From assembly GCF_025061645.1 (NCBI RefSeq), contig NZ_JANYMP010000019.1:149697-195920 (forward strand): 46,224 nt of DNA. The letters run 5' to 3'. This document shows, piece by piece, positions 17,391-44,963 of this stretch. Position numbers and translations under genes: made by a program. Origin of the DNA: Umezawaea endophytica (GTDB lineage Bacteria; Actinomycetota; Actinomycetes; Mycobacteriales; Pseudonocardiaceae). How positions within the stretch are numbered: position 1 is the stretch's first letter; every line of letters starts with the position of its first letter. The notes under the pieces are model-generated. The model ran no database searches. It worked only from the letters and a program-made list of their open reading frames with translations, and was not told where the DNA came from.

Positions 17391-17846
17391 ATGGACCCCC
17401 GCGACCGGGCCGACGCGCTGCTTGCCCGTGCACGAGCACGTGGCGCCCACGTCGTCACGCCGGACAACATGACGTCGCCCATGGACTCGTCGGCGACGCA
17501 GCAGATCCCGAGGGCCGTGGTGAACGCGGTCGACCCGCGTGAGCTGGACCCGGAGTCGACGATGGTCATCTCCGCGCAGATGGCGTCGGGCGGCAGGCCG
17601 CAGCAGGCCCAACAGCAGCAGTACCAGCAGCAACAGCCGCAGCAGCACCAGCAGGCGCCACATCAGCAGCAGCACTACCAGCAGCACCAGCAGCCGACCC
17701 AGCCCGAGCCCGTGCAGCGGGTCGGGCCGGGTCCGGTGCCGACGGTGCAGCAGGCGCCGAGCGGGCGGCCGAGCCTGACCCAGCGGCTGAGCGGCGACCA
17801 GCCGCCACCGCCGGGTCTGGCCCAGCGGCTCAGCGGCGACGCGTGA
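17391..17846 (+). CDS. Unrecognised Gln-rich, probably disordered protein
   Basis: A 151-residue protein with no family I can name. The N-terminal 70 residues look like a conserved segment: DPRDRADALLARARARGAHV, TPDNMTSPMDSS, and an acidic DPRELDPEST. Residues 71-105 are almost pure Gln with His, Pro and Tyr, encoded by a CAG-rich tract. The C-terminus contains two copies of an L-x-QRLSGD motif (SLTQRLSGDQ and GLAQRLSGDA) around a Pro run. ATG is preceded by AGGAG, 8 bp upstream. It is the only plus-strand gene between manC and wbbL and overlaps wbbL by 17 bp at the 3' ends. No signal peptide or membrane segment. Confidence 0.8.
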   Translation: MDPRDRADALLARARARGAHVVTPDNMTSPMDSSATQQIPRAVVNAVDPRELDPESTMVISAQMASGGRPQQAQQQQYQQQQPQQHQQAPHQQQHYQQHQQPTQPEPVQRVGPGPVPTVQQAPSGRPSLTQRLSGDQPPPPGLAQRLSGDA

Positions 17847-30085: not shown

Positions 30086-30229
30086 CCGTCGCGGTGGGTC
30101 ACCTAGTAAACCGTGCAACCCACCAGGTTGTTACAGCGTCTCCCGTATATAAGAGGAACAACCAGCGCTGACGGCACCTGGCCCACTAATCTTTGTCGAG
30201 TAGCACCACGCACGGGGGAGGCACCACTC

Positions 30230-31804
30230 GTGGAGGGCAGACCGCCACTGGCGAGCGAGAGACCAGGACCTATACGGGTCGACACACCCCCGGCGCGCAA
30301 GCGCTCGACCACGCTCCGCGCACTGCTCATCACGGGGCGCTCCTTCCTGGCTCTGCTGTCCGCCGCTGTGATGGTGGTCACCTGGTACGGCTGGAACTTC
30401 CTGCGCACGCTCGACCAGGGCACGGCGACGACCGACGTGATCGCCGCGCAGGTGGGCGAGGAGCCGGGCGGCGTCGGGCGCAAGCCGCTGGACGGCGCGG
30501 TCGACATCCTGATGGTCGGCATCGACAGCCGCGTCGACATGCAGGGCAACCCGCTGGCGCCGGAGGTGCTCGACCTCCTCAGCGGTGGCGTCGCCGACGG
30601 CGAGATGAACACCGACACGATGATCCTGGTGCACATCCCGGTCGACGGCACCCGCGCGCGGGCGTTCTCGTTCCCGCGCGACTCCTACGTGGAGATCGCG
30701 GACGGCTTCGGCAAGCACAAGCTGAACTCCGCGTTCGCCCGGCAGAAGAACACCGTCGCGGAGGAGCTGGCCGCGCAGGGCGCGGACCAGACCAGGATCA
30801 ACACCGAGTCCACGACCGCGGGCCGCAAGACGCTCATCAAGACCATCGAGAACCTCACCGGCGGCGCCGTCACCATCGACCGGTACGCCGAGGTGAACCT
30901 GGCGAGCTTCTACGAGGTCACCAAGGCCATCGGGGGCGTCGAGGTCTGCGTGAACCAGGCCACCAGCGACTACAAGTCCGGCGCGAACTTCGTCGCGGGC
31001 CCGCAGACGATCGAGGGCGCGCTGGCGCTGTCGTTCGTGCGGCAGCGCGAAGGCCTGCCCGGCGGCGACCTCGACCGCATCGCCCGGCAGCAGGCGTTCA
31101 TCGGCGCGCTGGCGAAGAAGGTCCTGTCGACCGGCATGCTCACCAACATCGACCAGCTCGACGCGCTCGTCTCGGCGGTGCAGAAGTCGGTGGTGCTGAG
31201 CGCGGGCTGGGACATCACGACGTTCGCCGAGCAGATGCAGGGCCTGGTGAGCGGCAACATCGAGTTCCGCACGATCCCGGTCGGCGACACGATGGACACC
31301 TACGGTGACGGCAACGTGCTCCAGGTCGACCCGGCGAAGGTGAAGAACTTCATCAAGAACCTGGCGAGCGACGAGAGCGCGGCGCCCGGCACCTCGGCGT
31401 CGAACACCCCGGTCACGGCGAACGACAAGGTGACCGTGCAGGTGTACAACGCGTCGGGGACCGCGAGGCTCGCGGCGACCGTGCTGGACACGTTGGTGGG
31501 CAAGGGTTACCTGCGCGGCCAGGCGCTCTCGGCCGCGACGCTCCTCGACTCGACGGTGATCCGCTACGCGCCCGGCGACAAGGCCGTCGCGGAGAAGCTC
31601 TCGAAGGAACTCGCGGGCGCGGCGGTCGAAGAGGACGATTCGCAGACCAGGAACCAGCTCTCGGTCTACGTGGGATCGGACTACAACCCCGTGCAGGACC
31701 GGTCGGACCCCGCGGGCACGCCCGGCACGTCGGTCCCCGGCTCGCCGACCTCGTCCGCCGCTCCCCCCGCCATCACCGCGGGCGGGCTTGTCTGCGTGAA
31801 CTGA
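30230..31804 (+). CDS. LytR-CpsA-Psr (LCP) ligase with LytR_C domain
   Basis: Membrane-anchored protein of 524 residues, expected to transfer lipid-linked glycan onto peptidoglycan (Lcp1/Rv3267-like). A basic cytoplasmic N-terminus is followed by one transmembrane helix (about 43-62, FLALLSAAVMVVTWYGW). The LCP domain (about 90-340) has DILMVGIDSR, SFPRDSYVEI, LNSAFARQ, and FVRQREGLPGGDLDRIARQQ, including the Asp and Arg residues that bind the pyrophosphate. A C-terminal LytR_C domain (about 400-500, VTVQVYNASGTARLAATVL) and a Pro/Ser tail follow. GTG at 30230 has GGGGGAGG 8 bp upstream. Head of the LCP-LCP-TIGR03089 run. Confidence 0.92.
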   Translation: MEGRPPLASERPGPIRVDTPPARKRSTTLRALLITGRSFLALLSAAVMVVTWYGWNFLRTLDQGTATTDVIAAQVGEEPGGVGRKPLDGAVDILMVGIDSRVDMQGNPLAPEVLDLLSGGVADGEMNTDTMILVHIPVDGTRARAFSFPRDSYVEIADGFGKHKLNSAFARQKNTVAEELAAQGADQTRINTESTTAGRKTLIKTIENLTGGAVTIDRYAEVNLASFYEVTKAIGGVEVCVNQATSDYKSGANFVAGPQTIEGALALSFVRQREGLPGGDLDRIARQQAFIGALAKKVLSTGMLTNIDQLDALVSAVQKSVVLSAGWDITTFAEQMQGLVSGNIEFRTIPVGDTMDTYGDGNVLQVDPAKVKNFIKNLASDESAAPGTSASNTPVTANDKVTVQVYNASGTARLAATVLDTLVGKGYLRGQALSAATLLDSTVIRYAPGDKAVAEKLSKELAGAAVEEDDSQTRNQLSVYVGSDYNPVQDRSDPAGTPGTSVPGSPTSSAAPPAITAGGLVCVN

Positions 31805-31890
31805 GCCTCTGTTCGGCCAAGAAGTCCACCTGAGGGGTCACCCGCTGGTTAGCCTTGGTGTTCACCCCTGTTCGCACCGAGGAGGACGTC

Positions 31891-33069
31891 TTGAGGGCTG
31901 CCCTGACCGTGACCGTGCGCGTGCTGGTCGCCCTGCTGTCGGCGGCCGTGCTCGCGGGCTCGGGGTACGGCTGGGCGACCTTGAAGCGGGTGCAGGAGAG
32001 CGTCAACACGACCGACGTGCTCGCCGACCTGTCGACAGTGCCGAACGCCCCGCCGGTGCTGGACGGCGCGACGGACATCCTGCTCGTCGGCAGCGACAGC
32101 CGCACCGACGCGCAGGGCAACCCGCTGCCCGCCGACGTGCTGCGCCAGTTGCGCACGGAGGCGTCCGACGGCCTGAACACGGACACGATCATCGTGCTGC
32201 GCGTCCCGCACGACGGCGGGAAGGCCACGGCCATCTCGATCCCGCGCGACACCTACGTGCCGATCCCGGACATCGGTGAGGACAAGATCAACGGGGCGTA
32301 CGGGCTGACGAAGTACGCCACCGTGCAGCGGCTGGAGAACGAGGGCGTCGGCGACCGGTCCGAACGCGAGAAGCAGGGCGACCAGGCCGGTCGGCGGGCG
32401 CTCATCCAGGTCGTGCAGGAGCTGACCGGGGTCCGCGTGGACCACTACGCGGAGATCAACCTCTACGGCTTCTACCTGCTCACCCAGGTGATCGGCGGCG
32501 TCGAGGTGTGCCTCAACGCGGGCACCAGCGACCCGGCGTCCGGCGCGAACTTCGGCGCGGGGCGGCAGCGGGTCGACGGCGGTGACGCGCTCGCGTTCGT
32601 GCGGCAGCGCAACCTGCCCGGCGGCGACCTGGGTCGGATCCGGCGGCAGCAGGTGTTCCTGTCGGCCGCCGTCACCGAGCTGCTGTCCGCGGGCACGTTC
32701 ACCGACCAGGGCAAGCTCACCGGGCTGCTGGACGCGGTCACCAAGTCGATCGTGGTGGACGAGAAGCTCGACCTCGTGACGCTCGCCCAGCAGGCGAGGG
32801 GCGTCGCGGGCGGCAACGTCGAGTTCGCCACCATCCCGGTGGTCGACGTCAACGCCCGCAGCGACAAGGGGCAGAGCATCGTGAAGGTCGACGTGGCCGC
32901 GGTGAAGGCGTTCGTGGGGCAGCTACTCGGCCCCACGCTGGTGCCCGGCACCACGACCACGGTCCCGAGTGCCGCCCCGAGCCCGACCCAGCGGGTGGCG
33001 GGTGGCAAGGTGGTCGGTCTGGACGGCGCACGACGGGTCGTCCAGCCGGAAGTGCCTTGCGTCGACTAG
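31891..33069 (+). CDS. Second LCP-family ligase, without LytR_C
   Basis: Paralogue of the preceding gene, 392 residues. One transmembrane helix (about 9-28), then an LCP domain with DILLVGSDSRTD, SIPRDTYVPI, KINGAYGLTKY, GGVEVCLNAGTSD and FVRQRNLPGGDLGRIRRQQ. It stops shortly after the LCP domain with a Thr/Pro-rich segment and has no LytR_C domain. TTG at 31891 is chosen because GGAGG lies 5 bp upstream and the predicted membrane helix follows quickly; the frame opens at 31855. Two linked LCP proteins suggest different acceptor or glycan choice. Confidence 0.9.
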   Translation: MRAALTVTVRVLVALLSAAVLAGSGYGWATLKRVQESVNTTDVLADLSTVPNAPPVLDGATDILLVGSDSRTDAQGNPLPADVLRQLRTEASDGLNTDTIIVLRVPHDGGKATAISIPRDTYVPIPDIGEDKINGAYGLTKYATVQRLENEGVGDRSEREKQGDQAGRRALIQVVQELTGVRVDHYAEINLYGFYLLTQVIGGVEVCLNAGTSDPASGANFGAGRQRVDGGDALAFVRQRNLPGGDLGRIRRQQVFLSAAVTELLSAGTFTDQGKLTGLLDAVTKSIVVDEKLDLVTLAQQARGVAGGNVEFATIPVVDVNARSDKGQSIVKVDVAAVKAFVGQLLGPTLVPGTTTTVPSAAPSPTQRVAGGKVVGLDGARRVVQPEVPCVD

Positions 33070-41761: not shown

Positions 41762-42529
41762 TCAGCGGGCCAGCGCGGCGATCAGCTCGCAGGCGTCGTG
41801 GTGGGTCGCGGGGAGCCGTTCCGACCAGACCTTGGCGGGACCGGTGGGTCTCACGTGCGGGTCGACGGCGAGGCGGTCGGCGGCCAGCACGCGCAGGTTG
41901 GACATCTTCTGCGCCAGCGCCGCGTCCCGGCGCGCGAGGACGACGGCCACGGACGGCCCGATCGTGGCCAGGGTCTCGCCGCCGTCGAAGACGACCCGCA
42001 GGACGTCCGAGAGCAGGGTCATCGCGACCACGCGCGACCAGCCGGTGGCGCGGGTCAGGTCGAGGCCGACCAGCACGAGCGCGTAGCGCTCGTCCGGCGC
42101 CGTCGGCTCGCGGTACAGCTCACCCAACCGGGTACGCAGGTAGCCGCGGGTGGCGAGACCGGTCAGCGGGTCCTCCGCGCCGCGATCGCACGCCTCCTCG
42201 GTGACGACCTCGGCCCAGCCGGACGCGGTCAGCCGCAGCATCCGGGCGGGCAGGGCGTCGACGTTCGGGACGACCAGACCGCCACCGCCGCCGAGCACCG
42301 CGTGCAGCGCGGCCAGGTCGAGCAGGGTCTCGTCGAGCCCCGCACCCGCCCCCGCGCGGGCCCGACCCAGCTTGACCAGCGCTTCGTCGGGGTCGACCGG
42401 GTCGATCATCGCGGCGCAGACCTCGTCGACCTCCCGCAGCGGCCAGTCGCCGGGGAACGGCCAGCCCGCCGCGAGGCTGGCCGTCCGCCACCTGGACTTC
42501 AAGACGCGTTCCGCCTGTGCGACACCCAC
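41762..42529 (-). CDS. Degenerate GGDEF-like protein
   Basis: Protein of about 255 residues. From about residue 118, DPLTGLATRGYLRTRLGEL is the typical beginning of a GGDEF (diguanylate cyclase) domain and ALVLVGLDLTRA is its first strand, but the catalytic GGDEF loop is missing: the corresponding place reads LATIGPSVAVVLARRD. It should not make c-di-GMP, though it might bind nucleotide or protein. The N-terminal part (RVLKSRWRTASLAAGWPFPGD) is unrecognised. GTG at 42529 follows GGGAGGGGAG; two earlier in-frame GTGs (42565, 42559) lack such a site. It is divergent from the sigma factor gene. Confidence 0.75.
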   Translation of the reverse strand: MGVAQAERVLKSRWRTASLAAGWPFPGDWPLREVDEVCAAMIDPVDPDEALVKLGRARAGAGAGLDETLLDLAALHAVLGGGGGLVVPNVDALPARMLRLTASGWAEVVTEEACDRGAEDPLTGLATRGYLRTRLGELYREPTAPDERYALVLVGLDLTRATGWSRVVAMTLLSDVLRVVFDGGETLATIGPSVAVVLARRDAALAQKMSNLRVLAADRLAVDPHVRPTGPAKVWSERLPATHHDACELIAALAR

Positions 42530-42624
42530 GTGGGTCGTCTCCCCTCCCGGTCGGTTCACTACCACGGGACGCGGCCGAAGGGCTTTCGTGACGGGATTTC
42601 ACCCAACCAGTCGAGGGGCTTGAG

Positions 42625-42651
42625 GTGACTTAGCGCTACGCCGTGAGTCAC
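42625..42651 (+). promoter_or_regulatory. Inverted repeat upstream of the sigma factor gene
   Basis: GTGACT (42625-42630) and AGTCAC (42646-42651), perfect 6-bp arms with a 15-bp spacer, 26 bp upstream of the GTG. It may be an operator or part of an autoregulated promoter. Confidence 0.3.
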
Positions 42652-42677
42652 ACTGGCCGCTGCGAGGGAGGAAATAC

Positions 42678-44963
42678 GTGGCGACCGTTCCTGCTGACGT
42701 CCAGGGACCGAGCGACGCGGAGCTCATCGGCTCTGTGCGCGGCGGGAAGATCGACGCCTACGGCGAGCTGTACGAACGCCACGTATCGGCGGCCTACAAC
42801 CTGGCCCGGCAGCTCACCCGCTCCCCCGCCGAGGCGGACGACCTCGTGTCCGAGGCCTTCGCCAAGGTGCTGGACACTCTCCGTGGTGGGCGGGGTCCGG
42901 ACACGGCGTTCCGCGCCTACCTCCTGACCGCTCTGCGGCACACCGCCTACGACAAGACCCGCCGCGACAAGAAGGTGGAGCTGTCCGACGACGTCTCCGC
43001 CGTGTCCGGGGTCCCGGCCGAAGCGGTGAGCGTGCCGTTCAGCGACACCGCCGTCGCGGGCCTCGAGCGGTCGATGGCCGCGCAGGCGTTCGCCAAGCTG
43101 CCCGAACGCTGGCAGACCGTGCTGTGGCACACCGAGATCGAGGGCCAGTCGCCCGCCGAGGTCGCCCCGCTGCTCGGGCTGACGGCCAACGGCGTGTCCG
43201 CGCTCGCCTACCGCGCCCGCGAAGGCCTGCGCCAGGCCTACCTCCAGGTGCACCTGACCGAGACCACGTCCGACCGCTGCCGCGCCACCGTGGACAAGCT
43301 GGGCGCGTGGACCCGCGGCGGGCTGTCCAAGCGCGAGACGACCCAGGTCGAAGCCCACCTGGACGAGTGCGACCGCTGCCGCGCGCTCGCCGCCGAACTG
43401 GTCGACGTCAACGGCTCGCTGCGCGCGATCGTCGCGCCGCTGGTCCTCGGCATCGGCGTCACCGGCTACCTGGCCGCCGCAGGCGCGGGCAAGGCCGTCG
43501 CCGCGACGGCCGCCGTCGCGGGCGCGGCCGGAGCGGGCGGCGCGACGGGCGCGCTCGGCTCGCTGCCCCGCCAGCTCTTCGGCATCGCCGCCTCGGGCGC
43601 CGCGCTCGCGGTCGCCGTCGCGATCGGCCTCACGGCCGGTGGCAGCGACACCGTCCCGGCCGTCGCCGAAGCGCCACCCGTCGTCACCAGCCAGCCCGCC
43701 GTACCGCCCGCGCAACCGGTGCCGACCGTGCCACCGCCCGTCGTCGCGCCCCCCGTCGTGCCACCACCCGCCCCCGCTCCGCAGCCGGACCCGCCGACAC
43801 CCACCCCACCGGCCCCGACCCCGGCCCCGGCACCCGCGCCGACCCCGGAACCCACCCCACCGGCCGAGCCGCCGCAACCGACACCGGCCGCCCTCGTGCC
43901 GACGGTGCCCAGCGGCTTCACGCTCGTCCCCGGCGAGGCCCCCAAGGCCCTGCCGATCACCATCCGCAACACCGGCGAGTCCGCGTCGGCCCCCGCCAGC
44001 ACCGCGCTGACCCTGCCCCCCGGCGTGCGCTCCGTCGGCCCCGTCGGCTCGTTCGGCGGAGCACGCCTGCTGGCGCTGGACGGCGCGCCCGAGCAGTCGG
44101 TCACCTGCCCGGCGGGCGCGGGCGCGGTGACCTGCGCGACCACCCAGGGCATCGCACCGGGCGGCACCGCCACGTTCGTCTTCAACCTCCAGGCCGACCC
44201 CACGGCGCTCGGCGGCGTCATCACCGGCGTCGTCACCGCGGGCGCCACGCTGACCGTCCAGGTCACGGTCGCCGTCGAGGTCCAGCCGGTCCGCGACGAC
44301 CTCACCCTGACCGTGACCAAGTGGCACGAGGTCTTCTGGGACCCCCGCCTGGACGTGACGGTCCGCAACACCGGCACGAACGCGGGCACGATGACGCTGA
44401 CCCTCTCGGCCGACGACAACATCGTCCTGGTCGCACCGCACGCGGGCTGCTCGGTCCTCAGGCACCACATCGAGTGCAAGGCGGAACTCCCGCGCGACGG
44501 CACCTACCGGATGTCCGCGTGGGTCTTCGGCCTGCCGTTCCGCGACGGCACCGTCCACGTCACCGCGACGCTCGGCAACGCCACCAAGACCGTCGACGTA
44601 CCGATCACCCTCTTCCCCGGCCACCCACCCGTCGACCCACCAGTGGACCCGACACCCACCCCCACCACCGACCCGACCGTCCCACCCACGACCACCACCA
44701 CCAAGACCCCGCCCACCCAGACCCAGACCACCACGGTCCCGCCGGACCCGACCAAGCCGACCACCCCCGCCGAGGAGGAACCACAGCCCCCGGCCCCCAC
44801 GACCACCACCCCTCCTCCCACGACGACCACCCCACCACCGGACCCGACGACCCCGCCCCCCACCACAACGGACCCGCCCACACCCCCGTGCCAACCACGC
44901 CCGCCGTGGTGGCCGCCCCTCCTGGGCGACCTGCTACCGGGCTACTGCCCGCCCCCTCCGTAG
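42678..44963 (+). CDS. ECF sigma factor fused to zinc finger, membrane segments and extracytoplasmic domain
   Basis: A 761-residue one-piece regulator. Region sigma-2 (about 20-95; YGELYERHVSAAYNLARQL, DDLVSEAFAKVL, AFRAYLLTALRHTAYD) and sigma-4 (about 132-190; LPERWQTVLWHTEIEG, GLTANGVSALAYRAREGL) are intact. A zf-HC2-type anti-sigma finger follows (H227, C231, C234 in AHLDECDRC). Two hydrophobic segments (about 248-268 and 300-319) anchor the protein; then comes a Pro/Ala linker (about 332-405), a beta-rich Ig/DUF11-like region (about 405-635) and a Thr/Pro-rich end with a terminal Cys pair. It resembles the described ECF groups with C-terminal extensions (such as ECF52-type). GTG has GGGAGG upstream. 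An inverted repeat GTGACT-N15-AGTCAC lies at 42625-42651. Confidence 0.9.
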   Translation: MATVPADVQGPSDAELIGSVRGGKIDAYGELYERHVSAAYNLARQLTRSPAEADDLVSEAFAKVLDTLRGGRGPDTAFRAYLLTALRHTAYDKTRRDKKVELSDDVSAVSGVPAEAVSVPFSDTAVAGLERSMAAQAFAKLPERWQTVLWHTEIEGQSPAEVAPLLGLTANGVSALAYRAREGLRQAYLQVHLTETTSDRCRATVDKLGAWTRGGLSKRETTQVEAHLDECDRCRALAAELVDVNGSLRAIVAPLVLGIGVTGYLAAAGAGKAVAATAAVAGAAGAGGATGALGSLPRQLFGIAASGAALAVAVAIGLTAGGSDTVPAVAEAPPVVTSQPAVPPAQPVPTVPPPVVAPPVVPPPAPAPQPDPPTPTPPAPTPAPAPAPTPEPTPPAEPPQPTPAALVPTVPSGFTLVPGEAPKALPITIRNTGESASAPASTALTLPPGVRSVGPVGSFGGARLLALDGAPEQSVTCPAGAGAVTCATTQGIAPGGTATFVFNLQADPTALGGVITGVVTAGATLTVQVTVAVEVQPVRDDLTLTVTKWHEVFWDPRLDVTVRNTGTNAGTMTLTLSADDNIVLVAPHAGCSVLRHHIECKAELPRDGTYRMSAWVFGLPFRDGTVHVTATLGNATKTVDVPITLFPGHPPVDPPVDPTPTPTTDPTVPPTTTTTKTPPTQTQTTTVPPDPTKPTTPAEEEPQPPAPTTTTPPPTTTTPPPDPTTPPPTTTDPPTPPCQPRPPWWPPLLGDLLPGYCPPPP

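Follow-up and report, generated by a model that had tools for sequence, protein, structure and literature searches.

The stretch analyzed here, called the window, is a 46,224-nucleotide piece of the Umezawaea endophytica genome (contig NZ_JANYMP010000019.1; the whole assembly is 11.0 Mb). On its plus strand, one frame of 761 codons with a GTG start (42678 to 44963) encodes a one-piece membrane sigma factor of the extracytoplasmic function (ECF) type. In our view, the protein likely belongs with the one-component transmembrane ECF sigma factors of the ECF52/53 kind and is released by proteolysis. A sequence-only reading had placed sigma-2, sigma-4, an anti-sigma zinc finger, and a tail with two cysteines in a single 761-residue frame, and the open reading frame (ORF) together with Pfam confirmed this. 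The gene and the parts of its protein are as follows.

42678 to 44963, plus strand: 761-amino-acid (aa) one-piece membrane ECF sigma factor (ORF, Pfam, TIGR02937, kept in relatives)
42768 to 42971, plus strand: sigma-70 region 2, residues 31 to 98 (PF04542, Sigma70_r2, E = 8.1e-14)
43080 to 43223, plus strand: sigma-70 region 4, residues 135 to 182 (PF08281, Sigma70_r4_2, E = 1.2e-5; 25.3 bits against a cutoff of 25.7)
43278 to 43382, plus strand: anti-sigma zinc finger of class-I type, residues 201 to 235 (PF13490, zf-HC2, E = 5.4e-10)
43419 to 43487, plus strand: first hydrophobic stretch, residues 248 to 270, with conserved APLVLG...GYL (hydropathy, alignment, model)
43569 to 43637, plus strand: likely single transmembrane helix, residues 298 to 320 (hydropathy of 2.2, predicted helix, charge pattern in relatives)
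43650 to 43883, plus strand: Pro-rich linker (translation)
43884 to 44243, plus strand: predicted immunoglobulin (Ig)-like domain 1, residues ~403 to 522, with Cys477 and Cys486 (AlphaFold2 model)
44250 to 44612, plus strand: predicted Ig-like domain 2, residues ~525 to 645, with Cys591 and Cys600 (AlphaFold2 model; the boundary between the two domains was placed by hand from the strand list of the model)
44625 to 44960, plus strand: Thr/Pro-rich tail, ending in a hydrophobic patch with two Cys residues, C738 and C757 (translation)

Sigma core, zinc finger, and frame

The sigma part has the composition of an ECF sigma factor. Regions 2 and 4 were the only sigma regions found, and the NCBIfam sigma70-ECF model TIGR02937 scored 73.2 bits over residues 27 to 187 (cutoff, 42.9); PF04542 was above its own cutoff, and PF08281 was 0.4 bit under. 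The zinc finger belongs to the class-I anti-sigma (ASDI) type, with H-x3-C-x2-C in a helical domain (PF13490 at 39.6 bits against 22.2; predicted helices at residues 199 to 212, 218 to 230, and 232 to 246). Of its likely ligands, H227, C231, and C234 had been read correctly, and a fourth, C201, had been overlooked. In a scan of named contigs with residues 1 to 320, which detects close relatives only, the best 80 of 117 confirmed loci were kept. The pattern C-x24-27-H-x3-C-x2-C is present in 78 of these 80 named loci; in the other two (L065 and L072), the last two Cys residues are one residue farther apart. C201 is invariant across the 65 sequences of the core alignment, A2. Rows lacking H-x3-C-x2-C (L065 and L072), rows under 120 bits, and near-duplicates had been left out of A2, so the invariance of H227, C231, and C234 there is partly due to selection, whereas C201 was no selection criterion. 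From L112 onward there are 68 rows, which take in the own paralogues, and 64 of them have C-x24-28-H-x3-C-x2-C (all but L203, L206, L214, and L216).

The named loci also bear on whether the fusion is real. Seventy-eight are from Pseudonocardiaceae and two are under Nocardiaceae names (L069, Rhodococcus; L074, Nocardia), with 18 genus names in all; the closest named relative found is Umezawaea tangerina (89% over residues 1 to 320). A frameshift hiding separate sigma and membrane genes was looked for and not borne out, as 76 of the 80 loci hold a single frame of at least 600 aa. Three exceptions (L080, L095, and L101) lie at contig ends. The fourth, L110, has a stop between the core and the outer domain, which is still present downstream, and this one locus in 80 is what could speak for two genes fused by a sequencing error. 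We rejected that explanation, which is refuted by the frame kept in 76 loci across the 18 genus names and which we regard as next to impossible.

Membrane topology and outer domains

Both of the hydrophobic segments that had been described are present (residues 248 to 270 and 298 to 326), but from the charges around them, the second alone seems to cross the membrane. Over 106 family rows, which include duplicates of the same species and near-duplicates, the stretch between the segments holds a mean of 1.75 K/R and 0.08 D/E, and the 30 residues after the second segment hold a mean of 0.68 K/R and 1.66 D/E. The 15 residues before helix 2 contain more K/R than the 15 after it in 86 of the 106 rows and fewer in 5. 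AlphaFold2 modeled segment 1 as two short helices of low confidence and segment 2 as one helix, residues 299 to 320, also of low confidence. Because of this charge pattern and these helices, we favor a single span at residues 298 to 320 with the N terminus inside and the C terminus outside; the first stretch is probably not a full membrane span. If both segments spanned the membrane, the C-terminal half would lie back in the cytoplasm. Hydropathy is in keeping with such a hairpin, since most rows (130 of 160) had two stretches above the threshold (16 had three, 12 had one, and 2 had none). Against it stand the intervening stretch, which bears K/R and is nearly free of D/E as expected of a cytoplasmic loop, the modeling of segment 1 as two short helices, and the lectin, NPCBM, and Ig domains that lie beyond the stalk in relatives; we judge it very unlikely. 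The earlier picture of a sigma factor fused to its own anti-sigma module and to an outside domain is supported by sequence as to the fusion, which also takes in a membrane anchor; the outside location is probable.

The outer part had been described as a beta-rich region with a domain that could not be named. AlphaFold2, run on residues 403 to 662 with 54 relatives, agreed with the first point (20 strands, no helix; mean pLDDT of 88.2, pTM of 0.71). At the level of the fold the domain can be named: residues 403 to 645 are predicted to form a tandem of two Ig-like beta-sandwiches, whose closest sequence matches, all weak, are DUF11, NPCBM_assoc (NEW3), and CARDB. The profile search that had been proposed for this part gave nothing significant for the window's own domain (CARDB at E = 0.0059, under the cutoff). 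Across the 55 outer domains of alignment A1, Pfam matched DUF11 in 27 (best E, 9.7e-6), NPCBM_assoc/NEW3 in 25 (best E, 9.8e-5), and CARDB in 16. The weak NPCBM_assoc matches denote the NEW3 Ig-like domain and not a binding module. The window protein had no Pfam match to NPCBM or to a carbohydrate-binding module (CBM) at E values up to 1, nor was either among the matches listed for the 55 A1 domains (25 of 37 families). A sequence search of the PDB with the outer domain yielded nothing significant (best E, 0.083). In Foldseek, the top PDB matches of the outer domain were integrin alpha chains (E = 1.3e-8, TMq of 0.40, root mean square deviation [rmsd] of 8.8 Å over 321 columns), with other multidomain proteins ranking below them. 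We took this match solely as "Ig-like tandem" and did not accept kinship with integrins.

Each sandwich carries one pair of closely spaced Cys residues. The 55 A1 sequences all have C477 and C486, and at least 90% have C591 and C600; all 76 long homologues have at least two such pairs after residue 330. Invariant residues of the aligned domain in A1 include N29, G31, L44, C75, and C84. At the far end of the protein, at least two Cys residues fall within the last 45 residues in 55 of the 76 homologues of at least 600 aa. The Ig-like pair appears to be largely confined to Pseudonocardiaceae. Matches to the outer domain were found in 31 of 36 genomes of the same family (own genome included) versus a single weak one in 24 others of the order. 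In a sample of 197 genomes from the class, 5 had matches; one of these is the own genome, and the other four matches are weak. As for the five same-family genomes without an outer match, G019 has the sigma core, G013 has a partial match, and G004, G006, and G007 have no core at an E value of 1e-30.

The core itself is more widespread: of 246 genomes sampled from the class, 84 had sigma and zinc-finger matches at E values of at most 1e-30. A Pfam search of 20 selected proteins, including two own paralogues, showed other outer parts on the same core: NPCBM in L135 (E = 9.7e-31) and L136 (E = 4.9e-30), an I-set Ig domain plus a C-terminal ricin-B lectin in L163 and L164 (family f34), Big_6 in L161 and L162, and DUF3344 in L153. 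L152 matched DUF3344 only under the cutoff and had a subthreshold DUF11 match; in the remaining proteins, the outer part had either no named domain or just low-complexity or subthreshold matches. The one sigma match of L167, to sigma-2, was subthreshold as well, and L170 and L171 had no sigma match. NPCBM, I-set Ig with ricin-B lectin, and Big_6 are domain types usual outside the cell. These sequences suggest that the outer part is exchanged from lineage to lineage within the family.

Core trees were quick searches without bootstrap, with groups named by genome family. In the first tree, the genome families formed separate clades. The window protein falls in the Pseudonocardiaceae clade (SH-aLRT, 99 and 100), which lies outside the f33 clade and has as neighbors L112 and L113, both from the class but not from Pseudonocardiaceae (SH-aLRT, 91 and 92); the deeper order is unsettled, and some long branches are possibly misplaced. 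Judged by place and frame length, at least 3 frames of the own genome have both sigma-2 and zinc-finger matches, out of 78 sigma-2 matches. One paralogue (L141; C5:179000-182800) is 76% identical in the core and has one Ig-like repeat and no Thr/Pro tail; both other genomes of the genus that were searched contain its counterparts (L217 and L218). The paralogue on C22 is 45% identical in the core and groups with f33 proteins on a long branch.

Upstream site and neighboring genes

Two elements precede the sigma gene.

42625 to 42654, plus strand: promoter-like site, GTGAC-N17-GTCACACT (conserved upstream of the sigma gene)
42664 to 42671, plus strand: ribosome-binding site GAGGGAGG, six bases 5' of the GTG start (direct reading)

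In its relaxed form, RTGAC-N16/17-GTCACACT, the site was found in 77 of 81 upstream regions, counting that of the window, at 21 to 87 bases ahead of the start (not in L056, L095, L096, and L103). The strict site was present in 62 of the 80 loci, and base shuffling did not produce it in 200 rounds. The own genome has a single copy of GTGAC-N16/18-GTCACACT (control, 0). RTGAC with a CGTC-like -10 fits an ECF promoter and suggests that the sigma gene may be autoregulated through the site. A looser form, TGAC-N16/17-GTCACACT, occurs twice in the own genome; 22 of 36 genomes have matches to it, and many of these matches are away from the sigma gene. The other own-genome copy (C2:789697-789725, plus strand) is ~450 bases away from a sigma-2 match (C2:789031-789243) that lies on the other strand, and it may be there by chance.

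GtrA follows the sigma gene in 77 of the 80 loci, and the three misses are contig-end loci. The sequence-only reading had looked to the envelope-glycan neighborhood for a clue and had proposed a search for the motif upstream of GtrA. None of the 77 loci has the strict site around the start of GtrA, and matches with up to 3 mismatches in the window numbered 13 and 8 against ~22 expected for each, fewer than by chance. Regulation of GtrA through the same site was therefore rejected. A TAGACT/TAAACT-like element stands near a start codon in 4 of the 9 listed stretches downstream of the sigma gene and could be GtrA's own promoter. GtrA adjoins purK with no sigma gene between them in all six loci of family f8, which we infer to be Mycobacteriaceae, and none of the 24 loci from the order's other families showed a sigma core in the vicinity of GtrA. 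In L197 (f13), purK and a distant GtrA flank a relative of the gene divergent from the sigma gene, with no sigma core. Because GtrA-purK stands without a sigma gene in f8, the glycan neighborhood alone does not tie the sigma factor to GtrA, and the location is a weak clue.

The divergent gene (41762 to 42565, minus strand; 267 aa) had no Pfam match at an E value of 0.01 and is present in 79 of the 80 loci at a median identity of 52%. Its DPLTGLATR stretch resembles a worn GGDEF domain, and the gene is a candidate partner. Between the two divergent genes, a second conserved block (42567 to 42593; CGTGACG with an upstream GACG/AACG partner) may be the promoter of the minus-strand gene. About 10 kb upstream are two adjacent plus-strand LytR-CpsA-Psr genes (30113 to 31804 and 31855 to 33069), the first with LytR_C; LytR-CpsA-Psr proteins often attach wall polymers. 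A CAG-rich repeat array is found at 17600 to 17703.

Proposed mechanism and known systems

In the mechanism that we propose, the zinc-binding helical domain would clamp sigma-2 and sigma-4 of the same chain and hold the protein inactive and tethered to the membrane. A single membrane helix would be followed by the Pro-rich stalk, the two Ig-like domains, and the Thr/Pro tail, reaching into or through the wall. If the Ig pair felt a change at the wall, cleavage on the outside, then inside the membrane helix, would most likely follow, and the cytoplasmic piece would be trimmed to a free sigma factor that joins RNA polymerase. The ligand, we would guess, is a wall polymer or a wall-associated protein.

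The clamp in cis is plausible because the zinc domain begins within ~20 residues after sigma-4 and because helix 1 contacts sigma-4 and helix 4 contacts sigma-2 in class-I complexes (PMC7406223; this and the other papers are cited from partial texts). In Foldseek, the 331-residue N-terminal model fitted ECF chains from sigma/anti-sigma crystals (1or7, 8z6g, 6in7, 6dxo, 5wur, 5wuq, 4cxf, 4nqw, and 5uxx) at rmsd values of 8.4 to 14.2 Å, versus 17.5 to 24.9 Å for ECF chains bound to RNA polymerase (6dv9, 9m9e, 6jcx, 5zx2, 6jbq, and others), a hint that the model is in the closed arrangement.

Several points weigh against the proposal. The N-terminal model has a pTM of 0.48 and comes without an interdomain error estimate, and its PDB matches had low query TM-scores (0.13 to 0.26 among the 50 matches listed). 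Zinc anti-sigma domains of membrane proteins may be structural and not sensory (PMC7406223). The charge bias around helix 2 is mixed in other families (27 versus 11 of 52 rows). A site search of the own genome and of the 36 genomes found no regulon, since the site is rare per genome and its looser form occurred 30 times in the 36 genomes against 15 for the reversed control, about twice as often. The site geometry also fits a housekeeping promoter, as the RTGAC/CACACT spacing does with an odd first base. Finally, we found no experiment on the 761-aa protein, and neither a protease nor a ligand was found.

By analogy with IutY and with the truncation of SCO4117, we take regulated proteolysis as the most probable trigger. 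The tethered protein might instead stay intact and transcribe after a change of shape that opens the clamp, or the zinc site might be a redox switch. The zinc motif is conserved, cytoplasmic zinc anti-sigma factors are often redox sensors (PMC7406223), and for ECF52 an earlier proposal named a conformational change as the alternative to a proteolytic cascade (PMC5826349). A purely cytoplasmic redox switch would, however, have no need of the large conserved outer part, and IutY, the only fused case said to be worked out experimentally, is activated by proteolysis (PMC8999054). Release by a change of shape is therefore unlikely in our estimate. A further possibility is that the Ig pair and the tail merely anchor the protein in the wall, with control through expression or phosphorylation. 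The tail is of low complexity and variable, and DUF11/NEW3-like domains are often structural. SCO4117, moreover, is phosphorylated (PMC5826349). The invariant residues in the Ig pair and the binding-type domains (NPCBM and ricin lectin) that relatives carry at the same place argue the other way, and such an anchor strikes us as quite improbable.

A one-piece membrane sigma factor senses, is inhibited, and transcribes within the same chain, and only a small number of such proteins have been characterized. This clade is kept across most of the Pseudonocardiaceae, and its compact predicted two-domain outer part could be expressed alone, so that what outer parts sense becomes directly testable. 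NPCBM, Ig with ricin lectin, Big_6, and DUF3344 on the same core in other families offer a natural set of sensor swaps. On a broader and quite doubtful view, actinomycetes would possess a large modular family of one-component transmembrane sigma factors that join a single conserved sigma/anti-sigma/membrane core to lineage-specific outer sensors. The Pseudonocardiaceae form would then read the wall itself, its wall-spanning Pro/Thr arm with two Ig-like domains acting as an integrin-like tension or ligand sensor that releases the sigma factor on wall thinning or remodeling.

Among known systems, the sigma/anti-sigma pairs SigW-RsiW and RpoE-RseA share the sigma fold, and their sigma chains are among the best structural matches of the N-terminal model; their anti-sigma factor is a separate protein, unlike the fused one in the window. 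IutY of Pseudomonas putida (ECF243) joins a sigma factor and a membrane anti-sigma factor in one chain. It differs in belonging to a siderophore surface-signaling system, and the partial text makes no mention of a zinc-finger/Ig architecture (PMC8999054). ECF48 and ECF53 have a predicted fused zinc-finger anti-sigma domain and one to two membrane helices; for ECF48, ECF52, and ECF53 fusions alike, activation by proteolysis is expected (PMC8999054). Some ECF52/53 proteins have predicted glycosyl hydrolase or carbohydrate-binding domains (PMC10766802). In the literature searched by title and the start of the abstract, we found no Ig-type sigma fusion, a search that does not prove absence.

The sequence-only reading was right that ECF groups with C-terminal extensions are known. 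ECF52 proteins consist of a sigma factor, a zinc finger, a variable number of transmembrane helices, and an extension rich in Pro that bears a carbohydrate-binding domain. SCO4117 of Streptomyces coelicolor, described in 2018 as the first member to be characterized, has its parts (sigma, pfam13490, transmembrane, Pro-rich, outer domain) in the same order as the window protein (PMC5826349). When SCO4117 was cut down to the sigma domain, the developmental defect was milder than that of the full deletion and SCO4117 expression was activated (PMC5826349). The window core is 47 to 49% identical to six f33 proteins (L135 to L140). A 20-base primer given in the SCO4117 paper (PMC5826349) is found without change in L137; from its name, its place in L137, and the subject of the paper, we took it to lie at SCO4117. 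Given this primer and the NPCBM domains of L135 and L136, f33 is probably the Streptomyces SCO4117-type group. The window protein has the fused zinc finger, the membrane helix or helices, and the long Pro-rich extension of ECF52. We did not file it there because Pfam, the one tool applied to this point, shows no carbohydrate-binding domain and because its core stands outside the f33 clade, away from the SCO4117-type proteins. The general design (sigma factor, zinc finger, transmembrane helix, Pro-rich stretch, outer domain) is thus already described, and what differs is the outer part, where SCO4117 has a carbohydrate-binding domain and the window protein a predicted Ig-like pair.

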